A DNA stretch of 31,166 bases from a virus. This document shows positions 461 to 9,249 of this stretch, piece by piece. The stretch's first letter is position 1. Every line of letters begins with the position of its first letter. The stretch covers positions 1 to 31,166 of the IMG/VR virus record IMGVR_UViG_3300020595_000128. The stretch is one strand, 5' to 3'. Made by a program: the position numbers and the translations under genes. Under the pieces are notes generated by a model, which was not told where the DNA came from, did no database searches, and worked only from the letters and a program-made list of their open reading frames with translations.

Positions 461-564
461 CTTGCGTACATCTTGGCTGCCCAAGCGTTTCTTTGTTTCT
501 TGAAAGGGTATCTCTTTCTTAACCTCGCATTTGCTATGCGTAGGAATTGATTCATCTTATTCAT
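439..564 (-). CDS. Small basic hypothetical protein (41 aa)
   Basis: ATG at 562-564 overlaps the TGA of the upstream gene as ATGA, which suggests translational coupling. The 41-residue product (MNKMNQFLRIANARLRKRYP...) is strongly basic, with many Arg/Lys and aromatic residues (WAAKMYARWV). That would suit nucleic-acid binding or a small structural role, but I cannot assign a function. The stop is TAG at 439-441. Confidence 0.55.
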   Translation of the reverse strand: MNKMNQFLRIANARLRKRYPFKKQRNAWAAKMYARWVSRKK

Positions 565-842
565 AAGGCTTCGTTATGTATTTCTTCTAAAGTCTTTTCC
601 AATATAGAGTCTATGCCACGCTGAATTTGCATCATAACAAACTCATCTCCTTTACCCATCTCAGCCAATGCCTCACGTAGGTGTCTCTCGATCTTCTTCT
701 CTAGGTTGGTCATCAGGTTCTTGATATCGTGTCTATACATCTTTAGACCACGCATCTCATCCATAATCTCTAGTGAAGCCTGCATCAATAGTGATAGCTT
801 TACAGCTTTATTAAACTGCTCAAATTCCTTCCTCTCACTCAT
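561..842 (-). CDS. Hypothetical helical protein (93 aa)
   Basis: The product starting MSERKEFEQFNKAVKL is almost wholly predicted helix with heptad-like spacing of Leu, Ile and Met (SLLMQASLEIMDEM, then LEKKIERHLREAL), so a coiled coil or helical bundle is likely. I chose ATG at 840-842 because it overlaps the TAA of an upstream frame as TAATG; an in-frame ATG three codons upstream (851) is possible. The downstream end overlaps the next gene as ATGA. No family is recognised. Confidence 0.7.
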   Translation of the reverse strand: MSERKEFEQFNKAVKLSLLMQASLEIMDEMRGLKMYRHDIKNLMTNLEKKIERHLREALAEMGKGDEFVMMQIQRGIDSILEKTLEEIHNEAL

Positions 843-1140: not shown

Positions 1141-1428
1141 CTAGAATGGTAAACCACCCTCGCTAGTTGTTGGTGCAAACGGGTTGTTTGCGTTGCTCGT
1201 ACCGGCAGGAGCATTACCTCCGTTTGGTTGCCAAGTGTCTAACTCCATATAGAAGTTTCCATTCTTAGCTTGTTTAACTTCAAGGTTTACCCATCCGTTC
1301 TTTTGATTAGCTTGTAAAAAAGCTACAGCTTCGTCTACCTTAATAGACTGCTTCCCTACTACAAATTCAGGAGCGTTTGCGCTTCTCTTAAACGAGAAAC
1401 CTTGTGCAAAAATTTTGTCTTGCGTCAT
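1141..1428 (-). CDS. Small SSB-like phage protein with C-terminal LPF tail (95 aa)
   Basis: The first 65 residues form a compact beta-rich domain (FSFKRSANAPEFVVGKQSI, then a WVNLEVK strand and FYMELDTW). They are followed by a Gly/Asn/Pro/Ala-rich linker and the C-terminus GGLPF. That ending mimics the acidic-hydrophobic tip (…IPF) of single-stranded DNA-binding proteins, which docks repair enzymes. It lies directly downstream of an exonuclease and an Erf recombinase gene and has its own promoter (TTTG-N20-TAAATTTG). A role as an ssDNA-binding partner of the recombination pair is inferred from layout and tail, not from a recognised OB-fold signature. It could instead be an unrelated small phage protein. 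Confidence 0.75.
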   Translation of the reverse strand: MTQDKIFAQGFSFKRSANAPEFVVGKQSIKVDEAVAFLQANQKNGWVNLEVKQAKNGNFYMELDTWQPNGGNAPAGTSNANNPFAPTTSEGGLPF

Positions 1429-2291: not shown

Positions 2292-2863
2292 TAAACGAAT
2301 TTCTTAAGTGCCTCAACCTGCTTAGGTGAGAACTTGTTGCCGTACTTCTCTAGAACCATTTTAAGCACCATACCTTTCTTGTCGTCAGGTGTACTCTTTA
2401 GGTACTCTATAGATTGTTGGAAGCTGTCATCTTTCTTTGCCGGTGCACTTGCAGGTGCTGTAGCTTTGCCGTGTCCATTGGTTGCATCAGCATCAGCTGT
2501 ATCATCAATCAGTAGTAGGTTGCCTAAGGCATACTTCTTACCATACGATGAAGCAGAACCAAAAGCCTGAGGTAACTGCATACCTTTTTGGTTGGTATCT
2601 ACACCAACGATAGCTTTTGTTAAGATAGATTGATCACTTTCTACATCGTGAATACTAGCTGTAGAAGTAATAACGGGAACACCTGAGGTGATATCCACAT
2701 CTTCGTTTACAATAAAGTACACTTTGTACTTAGCGTTAAAAGGCTTTAGCCCTTCTAAGATGTCTTCAGCACTACGGAAGTTGTACTTCCCAAAGCTGTT
2801 GTAACGGCTCTTTTTAGCCTTGAATTCTTGCTGTATCGAGGACAGCTTCTCTCCTAAAGTCAT
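2291..2863 (-). CDS. erf: ERF-family single-strand annealing recombinase
   Basis: The 190-residue protein shows the ERF signature QAFGSASSYGKKYALGNLL followed by IDDTADADA at about residues 98-127, with the usual N-terminal helix and YNSFGKYNFRSAEDIL. Erf proteins form rings that anneal complementary single strands in phage recombination and genome circularisation. After an Ala/Lys-rich linker (about 130-143), a short C-terminal domain ends in a basic helix (SPKQVEALKKFV). The gene is first in a three-gene block with the exonuclease (ATGA overlap) and the SSB-like protein. Its start has the cluster's conserved leader (TAACTTAAATTAAAT) and a promoter-like TTG-N20-TACCTTGC upstream. Confidence 0.85.
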   Translation of the reverse strand: MTLGEKLSSIQQEFKAKKSRYNSFGKYNFRSAEDILEGLKPFNAKYKVYFIVNEDVDITSGVPVITSTASIHDVESDQSILTKAIVGVDTNQKGMQLPQAFGSASSYGKKYALGNLLLIDDTADADATNGHGKATAPASAPAKKDDSFQQSIEYLKSTPDDKKGMVLKMVLEKYGNKFSPKQVEALKKFV

Positions 2864-3968: not shown

Positions 3969-4007
3969 TTTAGTTAATTAATCAGTAACCTGCAAGTCTT
4001 TCCTTGC
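3969..4007 (-). promoter_or_regulatory. Hairpin plus GGTTACTGAT leader module (C1)
   Basis: Minus strand: hairpin GCAAG, loop GAAAGA, CTTGC (3992-4007), then AGGTTACTGATTAATTAAC (3981 onward) leading to the next gene. It shows the same order of parts as the modules at 4.4, 5.3, 5.7 and 5.95 kb, with a different stem sequence. Confidence 0.55.
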
Positions 4008-4418: not shown

Positions 4419-4469
4419 AATAAAGTGTTTTAAGATATCAGTAACCGGTGACCCTAATCAGGGTACACC
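4419..4469 (-). promoter_or_regulatory. Hairpin plus GGTTACTGAT leader module (C2), stop codon in loop
   Basis: Minus strand: GGTG(T)ACCC, loop TGATTA, GGGTCACC (4447-4469), then GGTTACTGATATC (4437-4446 region). The TAG of the upstream gene (4454-4456) lies at the loop, so a ribosome terminating there would melt the hairpin. Confidence 0.55.
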
Positions 4470-5289: not shown

Positions 5290-5333
5290 AAACATTAATT
5301 TAAGTTATCAATAACCGCTAGACCTAGTCTAGC
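5290..5333 (-). promoter_or_regulatory. Hairpin plus GGTTATTGAT leader module (C3), stop codon in loop
   Basis: Minus strand: perfect 7-bp stem GCTAGAC/GTCTAGC with the 3-base loop TAG (5317-5333), then GGTTATTGATAACTTAAATT. The loop is exactly the stop codon of the upstream gene (5324-5326). The single change C to U in the block (ACTGAT to ATTGAT) would keep pairing with a G as a wobble. Confidence 0.6.
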
Positions 5334-5683: not shown

Positions 5684-5726
5684 AAGCATTCAATTTAAGT
5701 TATCAGTAACCGAGGGCGTTGCCCTC
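5684..5726 (-). promoter_or_regulatory. Hairpin plus GGTTACTGAT leader module (C4)
   Basis: Minus strand: GAGGGC, loop AAC, GCCCTC (5712-5726), then CGGTTACTGATAACTTAAATT to the next start. The upstream stop codon lies five bases before the stem here rather than in the loop. Confidence 0.6.
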
Positions 5727-5932: not shown

Positions 5933-5980
5933 AAAGCGTTTGTTTAAATTATCAGTAACCGAGGGGTCATTTGCCCCCTC
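5933..5980 (-). promoter_or_regulatory. Hairpin plus GGTTACTGAT leader module (C5), stop codon in loop
   Basis: Minus strand: 6-bp stem GAGGGG/CCCCTC around an 8-base loop containing the TGA of the upstream small gene (5967-5969), then CGGTTACTGATAATTTAAAC. Position and order match the other modules, while the stem sequence differs. Confidence 0.6.
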
Positions 5981-6131: not shown

Positions 6132-6265
6132 ATCAGTAACCAAGGACAGCTAGTGCTGTCCCTGCATCTCTCATACGTACTCTCTACGTTCCGTGGTTTC
6201 GCCCCATCTCAGGGGTCGTACCCGTAGGTACAGCTAGGTAGATTGCCTAGCCTCATCAGACTGAT
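6132..6265 (-). ncRNA. Candidate large hammerhead ribozyme with branched stems (HHR3)
   Basis: Minus strand order: stem I strand ATCAGT (6260-6265), core CTGATGA (6253-6259), G10.1 (6252), branched stem II, C11.1 (6201), core GAAAC (6196-6200), stem III ACCA (6193-6196) with TGGT (6139-6142), cleavage triplet GTT, then ACTGAT (6132-6137) closing stem I. In place of a simple stem II there are three hairpins (GCTAGG/CCTAGC, GTACC/GGTAC with TACG loop, CCCC/GGGG). Stem III encloses two more (ACGTA/TACGT and GGACAGC/GCTGTCC). The 5' edge abuts a TAA and the 3' edge the conserved leader. Core residues are complete, but the branched stems are unusual, so activity is uncertain. Predicted cut between 6138 and 6137. 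Confidence 0.5.
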
Positions 6266-6371
6266 TTATTTTTCCATAATGTCAAAGAACGCTGAGGTCT
6301 TACCCTCACTTGCTTCAGCTAATGTACGAAACGTATTCCGTAATTCCTAGCTTATTCACAACTTTATTCAC
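6266..6371 (-). pseudogene. Possible frameshifted small gene
   Basis: Two frames adjoin. From GTG 6369-6371, VNKVVNKLGITEYVSYIS ends in TGA at 6315-6317. In another frame, TFRTLAEASEGKTSAFFDIM ends EK at TAA 6266-6268, immediately before the HHR3 candidate. Joined, they would make a normal-looking 40-residue helical protein, but the second frame has no start codon after its preceding stop. This suggests a frameshift mutation, a sequencing error or recoding. Weak evidence. Confidence 0.3.
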
Positions 6372-7084: not shown

Positions 7085-7303
7085 TTAGTTGCGAAAATAC
7101 CTCACATCACAAGAAAGGTAAGCGGTGTTTCTATAGTTCAAAAACACCTCGCAGTTGAATTTACTTTTACCTCTCCATTGACATTCTTTACCTTCCCAAA
7201 TCCACCATCCGGGATTCAGGTTTCCACCTTTTACAATTCTGTACGTGTGACCTTTGATTGTCATTTGGTAACGACCCTTTTCAATTTTAGTTGACCTTTT
7301 CAT
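7085..7303 (-). CDS. Small basic hypothetical protein (72 aa)
   Basis: Start at ATG 7301-7303, directly after the leader and HHR1. The product MKRSTKIEKGRYQMTIKGHT and onward is basic, beta-rich and aromatic (GWWIWEGKECQWRGK), with three cysteines. It reads like a small beta-barrel, possibly nucleic-acid binding, by composition only. Its TAA is inside the next leader, so no RNA element lies between this gene and the following one. Confidence 0.65.
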   Translation of the reverse strand: MKRSTKIEKGRYQMTIKGHTYRIVKGGNLNPGWWIWEGKECQWRGKSKFNCEVFLNYRNTAYLSCDVRYFRN

Positions 7304-7321
7304 AAGCATTTATTTAAATTA

Positions 7322-7375
7322 GTTACGGACTGCCCTGAGGCAGTTTCGGGTGTGCTCACCCATCATCAGCGTAAC
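7322..7375 (-). ncRNA. Type I hammerhead ribozyme (HHR1)
   Basis: Minus strand: stem I GTTACG (7370-7375) pairs with CGTAAC (7322-7327). Core CTGATGA (7363-7369), then one extra T, stem II GGGTG, loop AGCA, CACCC. Then GAAAC (7343-7347), stem III with loop TCAG, and cleavage triplet GTC (7328-7330). Predicted self-cleavage lies between 7328 and 7327, just 5' of CGTAAC. All core residues are present; the extra base at the core/stem II junction is unusual and could slow it. It starts right after the TAG of the gene at 7378 and releases the conserved leader of the gene at 7303. Confidence 0.85.
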
Positions 7376-7377
7376 AG

Positions 7378-7845
7378 CTATTTTTCTTCGTGTGACTCAA
7401 GGTATTCATCCCAAGAAACCACATCACCCGTAGTTAGTTCAAGGTAGAAATTCTCATTTCTCACCTCTTCGTAAAATTCCCATTCAGTATAGTGGTAGCT
7501 TTCATTCTCGTAGTAATATTCTTTTACTCTTTCTAATGACCAAGATTTGTAGCCATCATTGTTAGCCCATTCCATAAGGTATACATCCAAGTCTTTCTCG
7601 TACTTCAGGTAGATACTATCAAGAAGTAAAAACCCATCATCAAAACCCTCACCTGATTCTTTACATCTGCGTGACCAAAATTGTTGCACCTTGAGTAGAC
7701 CCTCAATAGCGTTAACCTTGGATTGAATGCTCAGGTCGGTATCAGATAGTTTTACAGCTATCATCGATACTTCTTCTTCAGCTAATTTACCTTGTCTTTC
7801 AAGGTCTTGCTGAGCGTGTGAATAACGTTGTTCTAGATTTGTCAT
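7378..7845 (-). CDS. Hypothetical protein (155 aa), paralogue of 6466-7068
   Basis: Start chosen at ATG 7843-7845 because the conserved leader (AATTTAATTAAACGCTTT) ends there; the frame's upstream extension covers the leader and an RNA element. The product MTNLEQRYSHAQQDLERQGK continues with a helical N-terminal half. The second half contains RRCKESGEGFDDGFLLLDSIY and YHYTEWEFYEEV, parallel to the gene at 6466-7068 though only one Cys is kept. It ends in acidic SHEEK. Function unknown. Confidence 0.7.
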   Translation of the reverse strand: MTNLEQRYSHAQQDLERQGKLAEEEVSMIAVKLSDTDLSIQSKVNAIEGLLKVQQFWSRRCKESGEGFDDGFLLLDSIYLKYEKDLDVYLMEWANNDGYKSWSLERVKEYYYENESYHYTEWEFYEEVRNENFYLELTTGDVVSWDEYLESHEEK

Positions 7846-7864
7846 AAAGCGTTTAATTAAATTA

Positions 7865-7920
7865 GTTATACCACCAAAGCCCGACCAAGTTTCCAAGGTC
7901 AGGCGAGGCGCAGTAGCAAC
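7865..7920 (-). ncRNA. Structured spacer element A, unknown class (pair with element B)
   Basis: Minus strand: GTT(GC)TACTGC pairs with GTGGTA(T)AAC. Inside is an 8-bp stem GCCTGACC/GGTCGGGC with one G-U, loop TTGGAAACTT. The 3' strand GGGCTTTGGTGGTATAACT is shared with element B, and 22 bases (7861-7882 and 8611-8632) are identical. It sits between the TAG of the upstream gene and the leader of the next, the same place the hammerheads occupy. No known ribozyme core is recognisable by eye. Confidence 0.5.
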
Positions 7921-7926
7921 AGCTAA

Positions 7927-8226
7927 CTAGCTGAGCCCTTTTAAGGCATTCTTAGCCTTCTTCAGGTACTTATGTGTAGCCTGAGCAGATTGGAAATGTG
8001 CGTAGCTTTCACCTAATGCAATGAGCGTATCAACCTCAGCACGTACACGGGTCAACATTTGGTGCGCCATTTGTGGGTTGATGTGTTCCGATGTTTGCTG
8101 ACTCATTGTATCAACGAGGCTTTTAACATTCTCAAATTCCTCAATGTTTGATACCTTAAGGTATGCATCACGCACAGCTGAATTAAGGGTTGCAAATTGT
8201 TTCTCAGTTAAAGTGATAGTCTTCAT
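7927..8226 (-). CDS. Hypothetical helical protein (99 aa)
   Basis: The product MKTITLTEKQFATLNSAVRD and onward is nearly all helix, with a region of repeated charged and Gln residues (TMSQQTSEHINPQMAHQMLT) and a basic C-terminus (YLKKAKNALKGLS). The start at 8224-8226 follows the leader AAACTTAAATTAATTGCTTT. No family recognised. Confidence 0.65.
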   Translation of the reverse strand: MKTITLTEKQFATLNSAVRDAYLKVSNIEEFENVKSLVDTMSQQTSEHINPQMAHQMLTRVRAEVDTLIALGESYAHFQSAQATHKYLKKAKNALKGLS

Positions 8227-8256
8227 AAAGCAATTAATTTAAGTTTAGTATTCTAA

Positions 8257-8595
8257 TTATTCAGTTTCAAATTTGAGTAGCATAGCTCCATCAATTAAAC
8301 GGGGCACGTAATCCATATCCTCATCAGTAGACCATCCGTTCGTAATGCATACATCAGGTGAAAAAACCTGACCAATCTTTGCGGTCATATCATCGGTCTC
8401 AAAGAAGTCACTACGGAACGCTACGCTGTGCTCAGGGAACGCTACCCATACAAAACCCTCATCACCTATGGTAGGGTCTTCAAAGAATGTGATGCGCTGA
8501 CCTAGGTCATTCTTGAAGTCGTTACGAGCATCGAGAATCGTAGCATCATTGCGATGTAGATTCAGCAGGTCTTCAGTTGGATTGATTGATTTCAT
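8257..8595 (-). CDS. Acidic hypothetical protein (112 aa)
   Basis: The product MKSINPTEDLLNLHRNDATI and onward is strongly acidic and mixed alpha/beta, with DEGFVWVAFPEHSVAFRSD in the middle and many Asp residues later (GWSTDEDMDYVP). Acidic small proteins in phage early clusters are sometimes DNA mimics, but nothing specific supports that here. The start follows element B and the conserved leader. Confidence 0.65.
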   Translation of the reverse strand: MKSINPTEDLLNLHRNDATILDARNDFKNDLGQRITFFEDPTIGDEGFVWVAFPEHSVAFRSDFFETDDMTAKIGQVFSPDVCITNGWSTDEDMDYVPRLIDGAMLLKFETE

Positions 8596-8613
8596 AAAGC
8601 ATTTAATTTAATT

Positions 8614-8661
8614 AGTTATACCACCAAAGCCCCGCATTTATTTCAGTGCGAGGTGATGGTA
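8614..8661 (-). ncRNA. Structured spacer element B, unknown class (pair with element A)
   Basis: Minus strand: TACCATC (8655-8661) pairs with GGTGGTA. Inside, CCTCGCA/TGCGGGG is a 7-bp stem with one G-U and the loop CTGAAATAAA, leaving an asymmetric internal loop A against CTTT. The 3' strand is identical to that of element A while the stems differ and still pair, which argues for selection on structure. It lies between a TAG and the conserved leader. Confidence 0.5.
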
Positions 8662-8674
8662 GTTTTGGTTATTA

Positions 8675-8941
8675 CTAGTTTGTTCTTTCAATTATGCCGT
8701 ACTCATCTAAGTCCCTGACCACTCTTACGGGCATTTGGTCACCCTGCTTCATTTTAAGGATATCTTCAAATTCCTCATTAAGTGCGAATACTAACTCACG
8801 CTCTTCTTTATCTTCATTGTAGAAGAACAACTCCTTAAAGGTGAGTTTTTCAGTGTAGGAACAACCTTTGTGAACCATCACTATGGTGTACGTGATTTCA
8901 TCTACGAAGTTGGCTTGGCGATTTGCGAATTGATTTTTCAT
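8675..8941 (-). CDS. Hypothetical protein (88 aa)
   Basis: The product MKNQFANRQANFVDEITYTI and onward appears to be a small alpha/beta protein, with acidic middle (FYNEDKEERELVFALNEEFEDIL) and a beta segment MPVRVVRDLDEYGIIERTN at the end. The start at 8939-8941 follows HHR2 and the leader TAACTTAAATTAAATGCTTT. Function unknown. Confidence 0.65.
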   Translation of the reverse strand: MKNQFANRQANFVDEITYTIVMVHKGCSYTEKLTFKELFFYNEDKEERELVFALNEEFEDILKMKQGDQMPVRVVRDLDEYGIIERTN

Positions 8942-8957
8942 AAAGCATTTAATTTAA

Positions 8958-9007
8958 GTTATAGACCCCCGTAGGGGTTTCGTCCTATCAGGACTCATCA
9001 GTATAAC
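8958..9007 (-). ncRNA. Type I hammerhead ribozyme (HHR2)
   Basis: Minus strand: stem I GTTATA (9002-9007) pairs with TATAAC (8958-8963), extendable by one A-T. Core CTGATGA (8995-9001), stem II GTCCT/AGGAC with a 3-base loop starting with the invariant G10.1-C11.1 pair. Then GAAAC, a stem III of C and G runs with TACG loop, and cleavage triplet GTC (8964-8966). Predicted cut is between 8964 and 8963. Every conserved core position of the hammerhead family is present. It begins inside the TAG of the gene at 9007 and ends at the conserved leader, so cleavage would separate two adjacent genes. Confidence 0.93.
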
Positions 9008-9249
9008 TAGTCTAGGTAACTATCATAGAAACTTCTATAGCTCTCTTGGGTCACTCCTCTTAGCCCTAGTTTAGAACTAAGTCGAGCACTTAGTTTATAA
9101 GCATCATTTTGCTTATCCTCAATGAAGATATCCAAATCTCCAAAAGCGAGTTCTACAGCGTAAGACAATGCGTTTAGCTCCTCCTTAGTGAACCTAGTGG
9201 TGAAGACATCTCTCGTTCCATCTTCGTGCGTGATTGCGTACTTTTTCAT
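9007..9249 (-). CDS. First gene of the leftward cluster, hypothetical (80 aa)
   Basis: Start chosen at ATG 9247-9249 after the leader TTTAAATATTTGCTTT; upstream extension would run through the leader and promoter. The product MKKYAITHEDGTRDVFTTRF and onward has a beta N-terminus and helical remainder, ending SYRSFYDSYLD. It lies about 28 bases after the -7 box at 9277-9284, so it heads the leftward transcript. Function unknown. Confidence 0.65.
   Translation of the reverse strand: MKKYAITHEDGTRDVFTTRFTKEELNALSYAVELAFGDLDIFIEDKQNDAYKLSARLSSKLGLRGVTQESYRSFYDSYLD

Follow-up and report, generated by a model that had tools for sequence, protein, structure and literature searches.

The DNA analysed here, called the window throughout, is the whole of a 31-kb viral contig (31,166 nucleotides; G000) encoding a terminase of PHROG family 6681 and a portal protein of family 6547. 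Judged by terminase, its nearest isolates are phages of Flavobacteriia (Flavobacterium elemovirus, Maribacter, Cellulophaga), with a best identity of 39% in isolates and 47% in an environmental genome. From ~3.5 to 9.2 kb all window genes lie on the minus strand; therefore, the two spacers of interest, A and B, were read on that strand. Each holds a minus-strand element and separates co-directional genes, A lying between genes 7927-8226 and 7378-7845 and B between genes 8675-8941 and 8257-8595. On the strength of sequence comparison, the elements of A and B are two copies of one previously undescribed structured RNA family, here named M2, with an outer stem (P1) and an inner stem (P2):

7846..7926 (core 7861-7913), minus strand: spacer A with its M2 element, upstream of gene 7378-7845 (minus)
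7897..7904, minus strand: A, 5' strand of P2, GCCUGACC, paired in the fold with 7879-7886, GGUCGGGC; P2 covaries across the family
7871..7882, minus strand: A, 3' side, comprising the end of P2, the internal-loop UUU, the P1 3' strand GGUGG and the start of the tail
8596..8674 (core 8611-8663), minus strand: spacer B with its M2 element, upstream of gene 8257-8595 (minus)
8657..8663, minus strand: B, 5' strand of P1, ACUACCA, paired in the fold with 8620-8626, UGGUGGU
8647..8653, minus strand: B, 5' strand of P2, CCUCGCA, paired in the fold with 8630-8636, UGCGGGG
8627-8629, minus strand: B, CUU bulge

The initial annotation had described a shared stretch in A and B, a two-stem fold with an asymmetric loop beside CUUU, and stems that differ in sequence and still pair, all of which were borne out. 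The identical minus-strand stretch ends in ...GGGCTTTGGTGGTATAACTAATT, and its first 18 bases, GGGCTTTGGTGGTATAAC, occur in the window at 7865-7882 and 8615-8632 only. Roughly one-third of the shared bases (AACTAATT...) belong to an A+T-rich leader general to spacers of this phage. Both elements fold into P1, P2 and an asymmetric loop with (C)UUU on its 3' side. Minus-strand folds were more stable than shuffled sequences (z -3.2 for A and -4.0 for B, with 0 of 200 shuffles equally stable), and plus-strand folding was weaker. P2 is entirely different in sequence between A and B, yet paired in both (GCCUGACC/GGUCGGGC versus CCUCGCA/UGCGGGG), whereas P1 is weak in A, where a G-G mismatch lies beyond its four pairs, and strong in B (seven pairs). 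The 3' side of A at 7871..7882 is common to B and to copies in other phages. Likeness of A and B goes far beyond chance because independent copies elsewhere covary; a chance origin is ruled out by the fold z-scores together with covariation in unrelated phages.

As the initial annotation had proposed, metagenomic phages were searched for the conserved strand with its structure. Exact, gapped and relaxed patterns and two covariance models applied to IMG/VR returned about 30 copies of M2 on some 20 viral contigs of unrelated phages. Related sequences, cited here by L numbers, are all metagenomic contigs, many of them partial, and several M2 copies are near-identical. Covariance model R1 was trained on five copies, among them A and B, whose scores of 67.9 and 69.7 bits, respectively, are those of training members; the model matched four copies within 3 kb of L109, two in L005, two in L006 and one in L032. 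Model R2 was built from five copies only, all from phages using Shine-Dalgarno leaders. Free of window sequence, it recovered B (21.6 bits, E 0.007) and, weakly, A (16.8 bits, E 0.14), along with copies in L005, L006, L009, L014, L018 and L109. Detection was reciprocal between models from different phage groups.

Several candidates were set aside. Apparent blastn homologues among isolated phages of Vibrio, Staphylococcus and Mycobacterium proved to be short matches due to chance, and L106-L108, L003, L004, L008, L159 and L340/341/344 gave coding-sequence or chance matches. L186 2255-2275, L224 6208-6253 and L204 5622-5669 look like ordinary terminators; L240, L234 and L144 resemble sigma-70 promoters that contain TATAAT. 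L103-L105, where a palindromic ACCACCTTTGG element precedes a gene, were excluded as doubtful. A circularly permuted pistol, considered because of CCACGUUAAA in L148, was ruled out by the lack of a pseudoknot partner.

Common to M2 copies are an outer P1, an inner P2, an asymmetric internal loop between them that carries UU in its 3' strand, and a conserved GGUAUAA (GGU-R-N-A-A) tail. In the alignment of R2 hits (alignment A7; 25 distinct rows, of which L186 2255 and L243 12582 are doubtful), 96.9% of cells were paired and 8 of 11 pairs showed double changes, figures biased towards the structure by fitting of the alignment to its model. Covariation scored 0.468, compared with 0.159 ± 0.020 after shuffling (none of 500 shuffles reached the real score) and 0.02-0.12 with slid partners. 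Compensation is nonetheless evident on inspection of the sequences; forms of P1 include ACUACCA/UGGUAGU in L005 (ACUACCA/UGGUGGU in B), CCACGA/UCGUGG in L015 and L151, and ACCAGUAA/UUACUGGU in L189; L109 has ACCCCUA/UGUGGGU, with one mismatch. The P2 sequence is different in nearly every phage, and L018 combines a loop as in B with the stem CCUCCUA/UAGGGGG. Together the stems span 10-16 bp, with just 4+6 in L161 and L243. Outside the stems, M2 keeps the 3'-side UU (AU in two copies) and the tail, of which AGAAA, GAAAC and GUAAC are variants; the 5' side of the internal loop is variable, with 0 to ~9 bases. Conservation of the GUGGUAUAA strand was partly imposed by the search patterns, and copies found by model only reveal the permitted variation. 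A repeated GUUUAAACG-containing hairpin element was also observed in Shine-Dalgarno phages (L189 842-1038, minus; L186 2203-2346); exemplified by GGGUGUUUAAACGCACCC before UACAAC...GGAGG, it resembles the long 5' loop of some M2 copies.

Comparison with Rfam agreed with the initial view that A and B are of unknown class. None of 4227 families matched A, B or other M2 copies (E<10 in the window, E<2 in relatives), and no paper on M2 elements was found in open-access literature text. By descriptor search, the hammerhead core (CUGANGA, GAAA, three stems and a UH cut site) is absent from A, B and all M2 copies; Rfam hammerhead models matched at neighbouring spacers alone and at none of these elements. 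Pistol (RF02679) never matched at M2, though it was found at 55-72 bits in L005, L006 and L269.

With GC-rich P2 followed by UUU, and with TGGTATAAC resembling TGnTATAAT, M2 might be taken for a transcription signal, either an intrinsic terminator or an extended -10 promoter. However, P2 is followed by TTT only, with no longer T run, and no terminator- or promoter-like site was called at A or B, counts being near shuffle level. Boxes at -35 accompanied some spurious TATAAT pattern hits but no M2 copy. Moreover, tails vary as listed above, and P1 covaries, which is not required of DNA signals. We consider a transcription signal highly improbable.

Placement of M2, in spacers between small early genes of marine phages, is uniform. 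A sense ORF has its start codon 8-36 nt after the element in 32 of 32 listed copies (13% for random positions), and a co-directional ORF ends just upstream in 31 of the 32. Median spacing is ~9 nt after the stop codon and ~23 nt before the next start codon. M2 occurs across different terminase families, the window type being PHROG 6681 and the L018 and L151 types PHROG 2. The contig of one copy (L342) was assigned to a Candidatus Pelagibacter bin, a weak hint of an alphaproteobacterial host, and host phyla of M2-sharing phages probably differ. No such element is present in isolates with the window's terminase family, as represented by partial records (elemovirus NC_055852, Maribacter phage Panino, MW202828). 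Among these partial contigs, proteins shared across M2 groups are few and include no obvious RNA-processing protein, which together with the spread over terminase families favours an RNA-only or universal mechanism. One shared protein, phrog_7595 (90-96 aa; L321 13582-13872, minus; L311 12403-12675; L326 13922-14452), is 70-85% identical between otherwise unrelated M2 phages, suggesting recent gene exchange; the 96-aa family has weak similarity to a minor head protein.

Such placement could also suit a hairpin that stays uncut and is bound by a protein regulating translation or mRNA stability. A phage regulon would account for small stem-bulge hairpins that recur, each with the short conserved motif, in several 5' UTRs of a genome, as the four copies in L109 do. 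Yet no protein common to all M2 phages was seen except phrog_7595, M2 sits upstream of the ribosome-binding site without overlapping it, and slots of M2 otherwise hold ribozymes. A protein-bound regulatory hairpin is in our judgement unlikely.

Ribozymes and other RNAs in equivalent spacers, together with a further pistol of L269, are as follows:

8957-9008, minus strand: cis hammerhead in the spacer of gene 8675-8941 (Rfam Hammerhead_1, RF00163, and descriptor)
7322-7375, minus strand: cis hammerhead in the spacer of gene 7085-7309 (descriptor search recovers the complete core with its three stems)
L114 (= L005) 532-596, minus strand: pistol ribozyme (55-72 bits for the three pistols)
L116 (= L006) 1196-1260, plus strand: pistol ribozyme
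L269 5072-5136, minus strand: pistol ribozyme
L336 and L337 ~2420-2480, plus strand: three-way-junction RNA in the spacer orthologous to B, with outer stem GCCACAC/GUGUGGC and two inner hairpins

The hammerheads initially noticed in neighbouring spacers are thus real. That at 8957-9008 scores 29.7 bits (E 3e-4), just below the gathering score of 34. The hammerhead at 7322-7375, which an Rfam scan of the window at E<10 did not report, has one extra U between CUGAUGA and stem II, a form also present in different phages (L032 1228-1281, minus; L089 2354-2404, minus). Equivalent spacers hold hammerheads in L005, L006, L032, L037, L056, L075 (two), L089, L098 and L336/L337 (three each). Pistols of L005, L006 and L269 are well above the gathering score, and those of L005 and L006 occupy early-operon spacers before a relative of gene 7927-8226.

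Comparison by gene reveals exchanges of these elements. Gene 7085-7309 is preceded by a hammerhead in the window and by M2 in L006. Gene 8257-8595 is preceded by M2 in the window and L006, and by the different three-way-junction RNA in L336/L337, which has no Rfam match at E<0.05 and has three hammerheads within the 900 nt after it. The conserved C-terminal part of gene 7927-8226 follows a pistol (L005, L006), M2 (L032) or a hammerhead/GGUU site (L037); the window gene itself has a plain 30-nt leader instead of a ribozyme or M2. Spacer A of the window and the L006 copy could be related by a deletion. Genes compared across slots are orthologous or only partly orthologous, and each swap alone is weak evidence because upstream spacer sequence is exchangeable by recombination. 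Collectively, the swaps suggest that the elements are interchangeable.

Window spacers other than A and B share GGUUACUGAUAAC, directly 3' of a hairpin that differs in sequence each time. These spacers include a putative hammerhead enzyme strand and sites that it could serve:

6192-6267, minus strand: hammerhead enzyme strand, AAAUCAGU-CUGAUGA-(three hairpins)-GAAA-CCACG
6132-6141, minus strand: cis site GGUU/ACUGAU, directly downstream of the enzyme strand, with a hairpin before it
5951-5960, minus strand: candidate trans substrate GGUUACUGAU, hairpin-abutted, without its own enzyme strand
5702-5711, minus strand: candidate trans substrate site
5307-5316, minus strand: candidate trans substrate site GGUUAUUGAU
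4437-4446, minus strand: candidate trans substrate site GGUUACUGAU, then AUC
3981-3990, minus strand: candidate trans substrate site GGUUACUGAU

The enzyme strand, with three covarying hairpins in place of stem II, is conserved in L006, L032, L037/L263, L266, L268, L269 and L271. Hairpin-abutted GGU(U/C)/ACUGAUAAC sites number 5-13 per genome, one per gene spacer (eleven in L037, thirteen in L266/L281 and thirteen in L271/L295). Every genome with several such sites also has one AUCAGU-CUGAUGA-(three hairpins)-GAAA-CCACG RNA (AUCGGU in L269), whose two arms complement the sequences on either side of a hammerhead cut, ACUGAU and GGU. A single site is in cis, next to the enzyme strand, and the remaining sites have no enzyme strand of their own. 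Position N17 of a hammerhead is never G; among 51 distinct hairpin-abutted sites, the would-be N17, the sole freely varying target base, is U in 43, C in 7, A in 1 and G in 0. In cofolding, the arms pair as expected with mean gains of -8.4 and -9.0 kcal/mol versus about -5 for shuffled sites; ~5% of control cofolds reach the real-site gain, so energy alone is not decisive. The RNA at 6192-6267 and its sites constitute a candidate natural trans-acting, multi-target hammerhead; to our knowledge, one serving many sites would be a first.

M2 could in principle be another substrate of such a hammerhead, like the GGUU/ACUGAU sites, and the window enzyme-strand arm GAAACCACG is complementary to (C)GUGGU. 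However, arm I (AUCAGU) does not pair with UAACUA of the M2 tail, and no hammerhead core with matching arms was found in M2-only phages. Within L109, moreover, the would-be target varies between copies, with compensation in cis. Arm I mismatch and the lack of a matching enzyme strand in M2-only phages effectively refute M2 as a substrate of the window's known enzyme strand, and we give the trans-substrate explanation in general almost no credence.

M2 is instead read as a cut site because its slots otherwise hold RNAs that cut or resemble cut substrates. By this analogy, M2 is probably a cis-acting mRNA-processing element, showing where the polycistronic transcript is to be cut between early genes; spacers can also recombine without functional equivalence. 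The RNA would be cut near the border of P1 and tail, at GG/UAUAAC or GGU/AUAAC. Much as with the neighbouring hammerheads, the upstream mRNA would then end not far beyond the P2 hairpin, and the downstream mRNA would begin with a leader of 20-30 nt.

The agent of such a cut might be a host or widespread nuclease acting without RNA catalysis, either on an RNase III-like bulged hairpin or as a sequence-specific endonuclease. In T7-like phages, RNase III sites are bulged hairpins between early genes of a polycistronic transcript, and M2 recalls them in form and position; free variation of its 5' loop alongside a maintained hairpin and short 3' motif also suits a nuclease. An RNase III processing site, however, has about 20 bp of near-continuous duplex with an internal loop, and no such duplex is present in M2, whose stems of 10-16 bp (4+6 in L161 and L243) are under the usual need. 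RNase III also leaves the conserved GGU-R-N-A-A tail unexplained, and M2 is common to phages whose host phyla probably differ. Cutting by a nuclease appears a minority prospect. Self-catalysis, a less certain part of the processing model, is put forward tentatively, slightly ahead of a nuclease: M2 is found in unrelated phages with no obvious common protein and is structurally self-sufficient in cis. An autonomous catalytic core is to some degree disfavoured, since conserved unpaired bases are limited to UU and the GGU-R-N-A-A tail and the 5' loop is variable. The conserved core appears far smaller than in known ribozymes, and for that reason self-cleavage is plausible but kept as a proposal. 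Within the reach of comparison, the initial suggestion that A and B might be another self-cleaving ribozyme or an equivalent processing element has good support from slots shared with hammerheads and pistols and from element swaps; the small conserved core and variable 5' loop speak somewhat against autonomous catalysis.

New ribozyme classes, among them twister-sister, pistol and hatchet, have come chiefly from the genomic surroundings of ribozymes already known. In the present case, operon slots of hammerheads and pistols are occupied, sometimes before orthologous genes, by an undescribed RNA with strong covariation. A bolder and somewhat doubtful reading is that M2 is a new, very small class of self-cleaving ribozyme (34-50 nt, two stems), used by marine phages whose hosts are Bacteroidota and probably also Pseudomonadota. 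It would then be one of several interchangeable cutters, alongside cis hammerhead, pistol and a trans-acting hammerhead serving some ten substrate sites, that convert early operons to single-gene mRNAs without protein nucleases. If M2 does cut, few natural ribozymes would be smaller, and it would help explain the purpose of bacterial and phage hammerheads and pistols as the cutting of polycistronic messages.

Among known systems, twister-sister and twister-sister-like minimal ribozymes resemble M2 in having two stems around an internal loop and a comparable size of 31-35 nt (PMC11620745). In those ribozymes the internal loop is strongly conserved and the cut falls at CA (PMC11620745), whereas the 5' loop of M2 is variable and the Rfam twister-sister model gives no match. 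Pistol (RF02679) resembles M2 in occupying equivalent spacers in close relatives (L005, L006), and its cut falls after an inner hairpin and before the outer stem's 3' strand. In contrast to pistol, M2 has no P1 hairpin of the pistol type, pseudoknot or conserved linker, and is not matched by Rfam scans that find pistol in the same loci. Cis hammerheads (RF00163/RF00008) occupy the same spacer position in the same orientation as M2, about as far from the start codon; in both, a GC-rich hairpin immediately precedes the cut (a proposed one in M2) and an A+T-rich leader follows. M2 differs in having two stems only, with no stem II, no CUGANGA/GAAA core and no Rfam match. Finally, RNase III sites of the T7 type are likewise bulged hairpins between early genes of a polycistronic transcript, but M2 is the shorter of the two, carries a conserved sequence motif on its 3' side and is found alongside ribozymes that fill equivalent slots.
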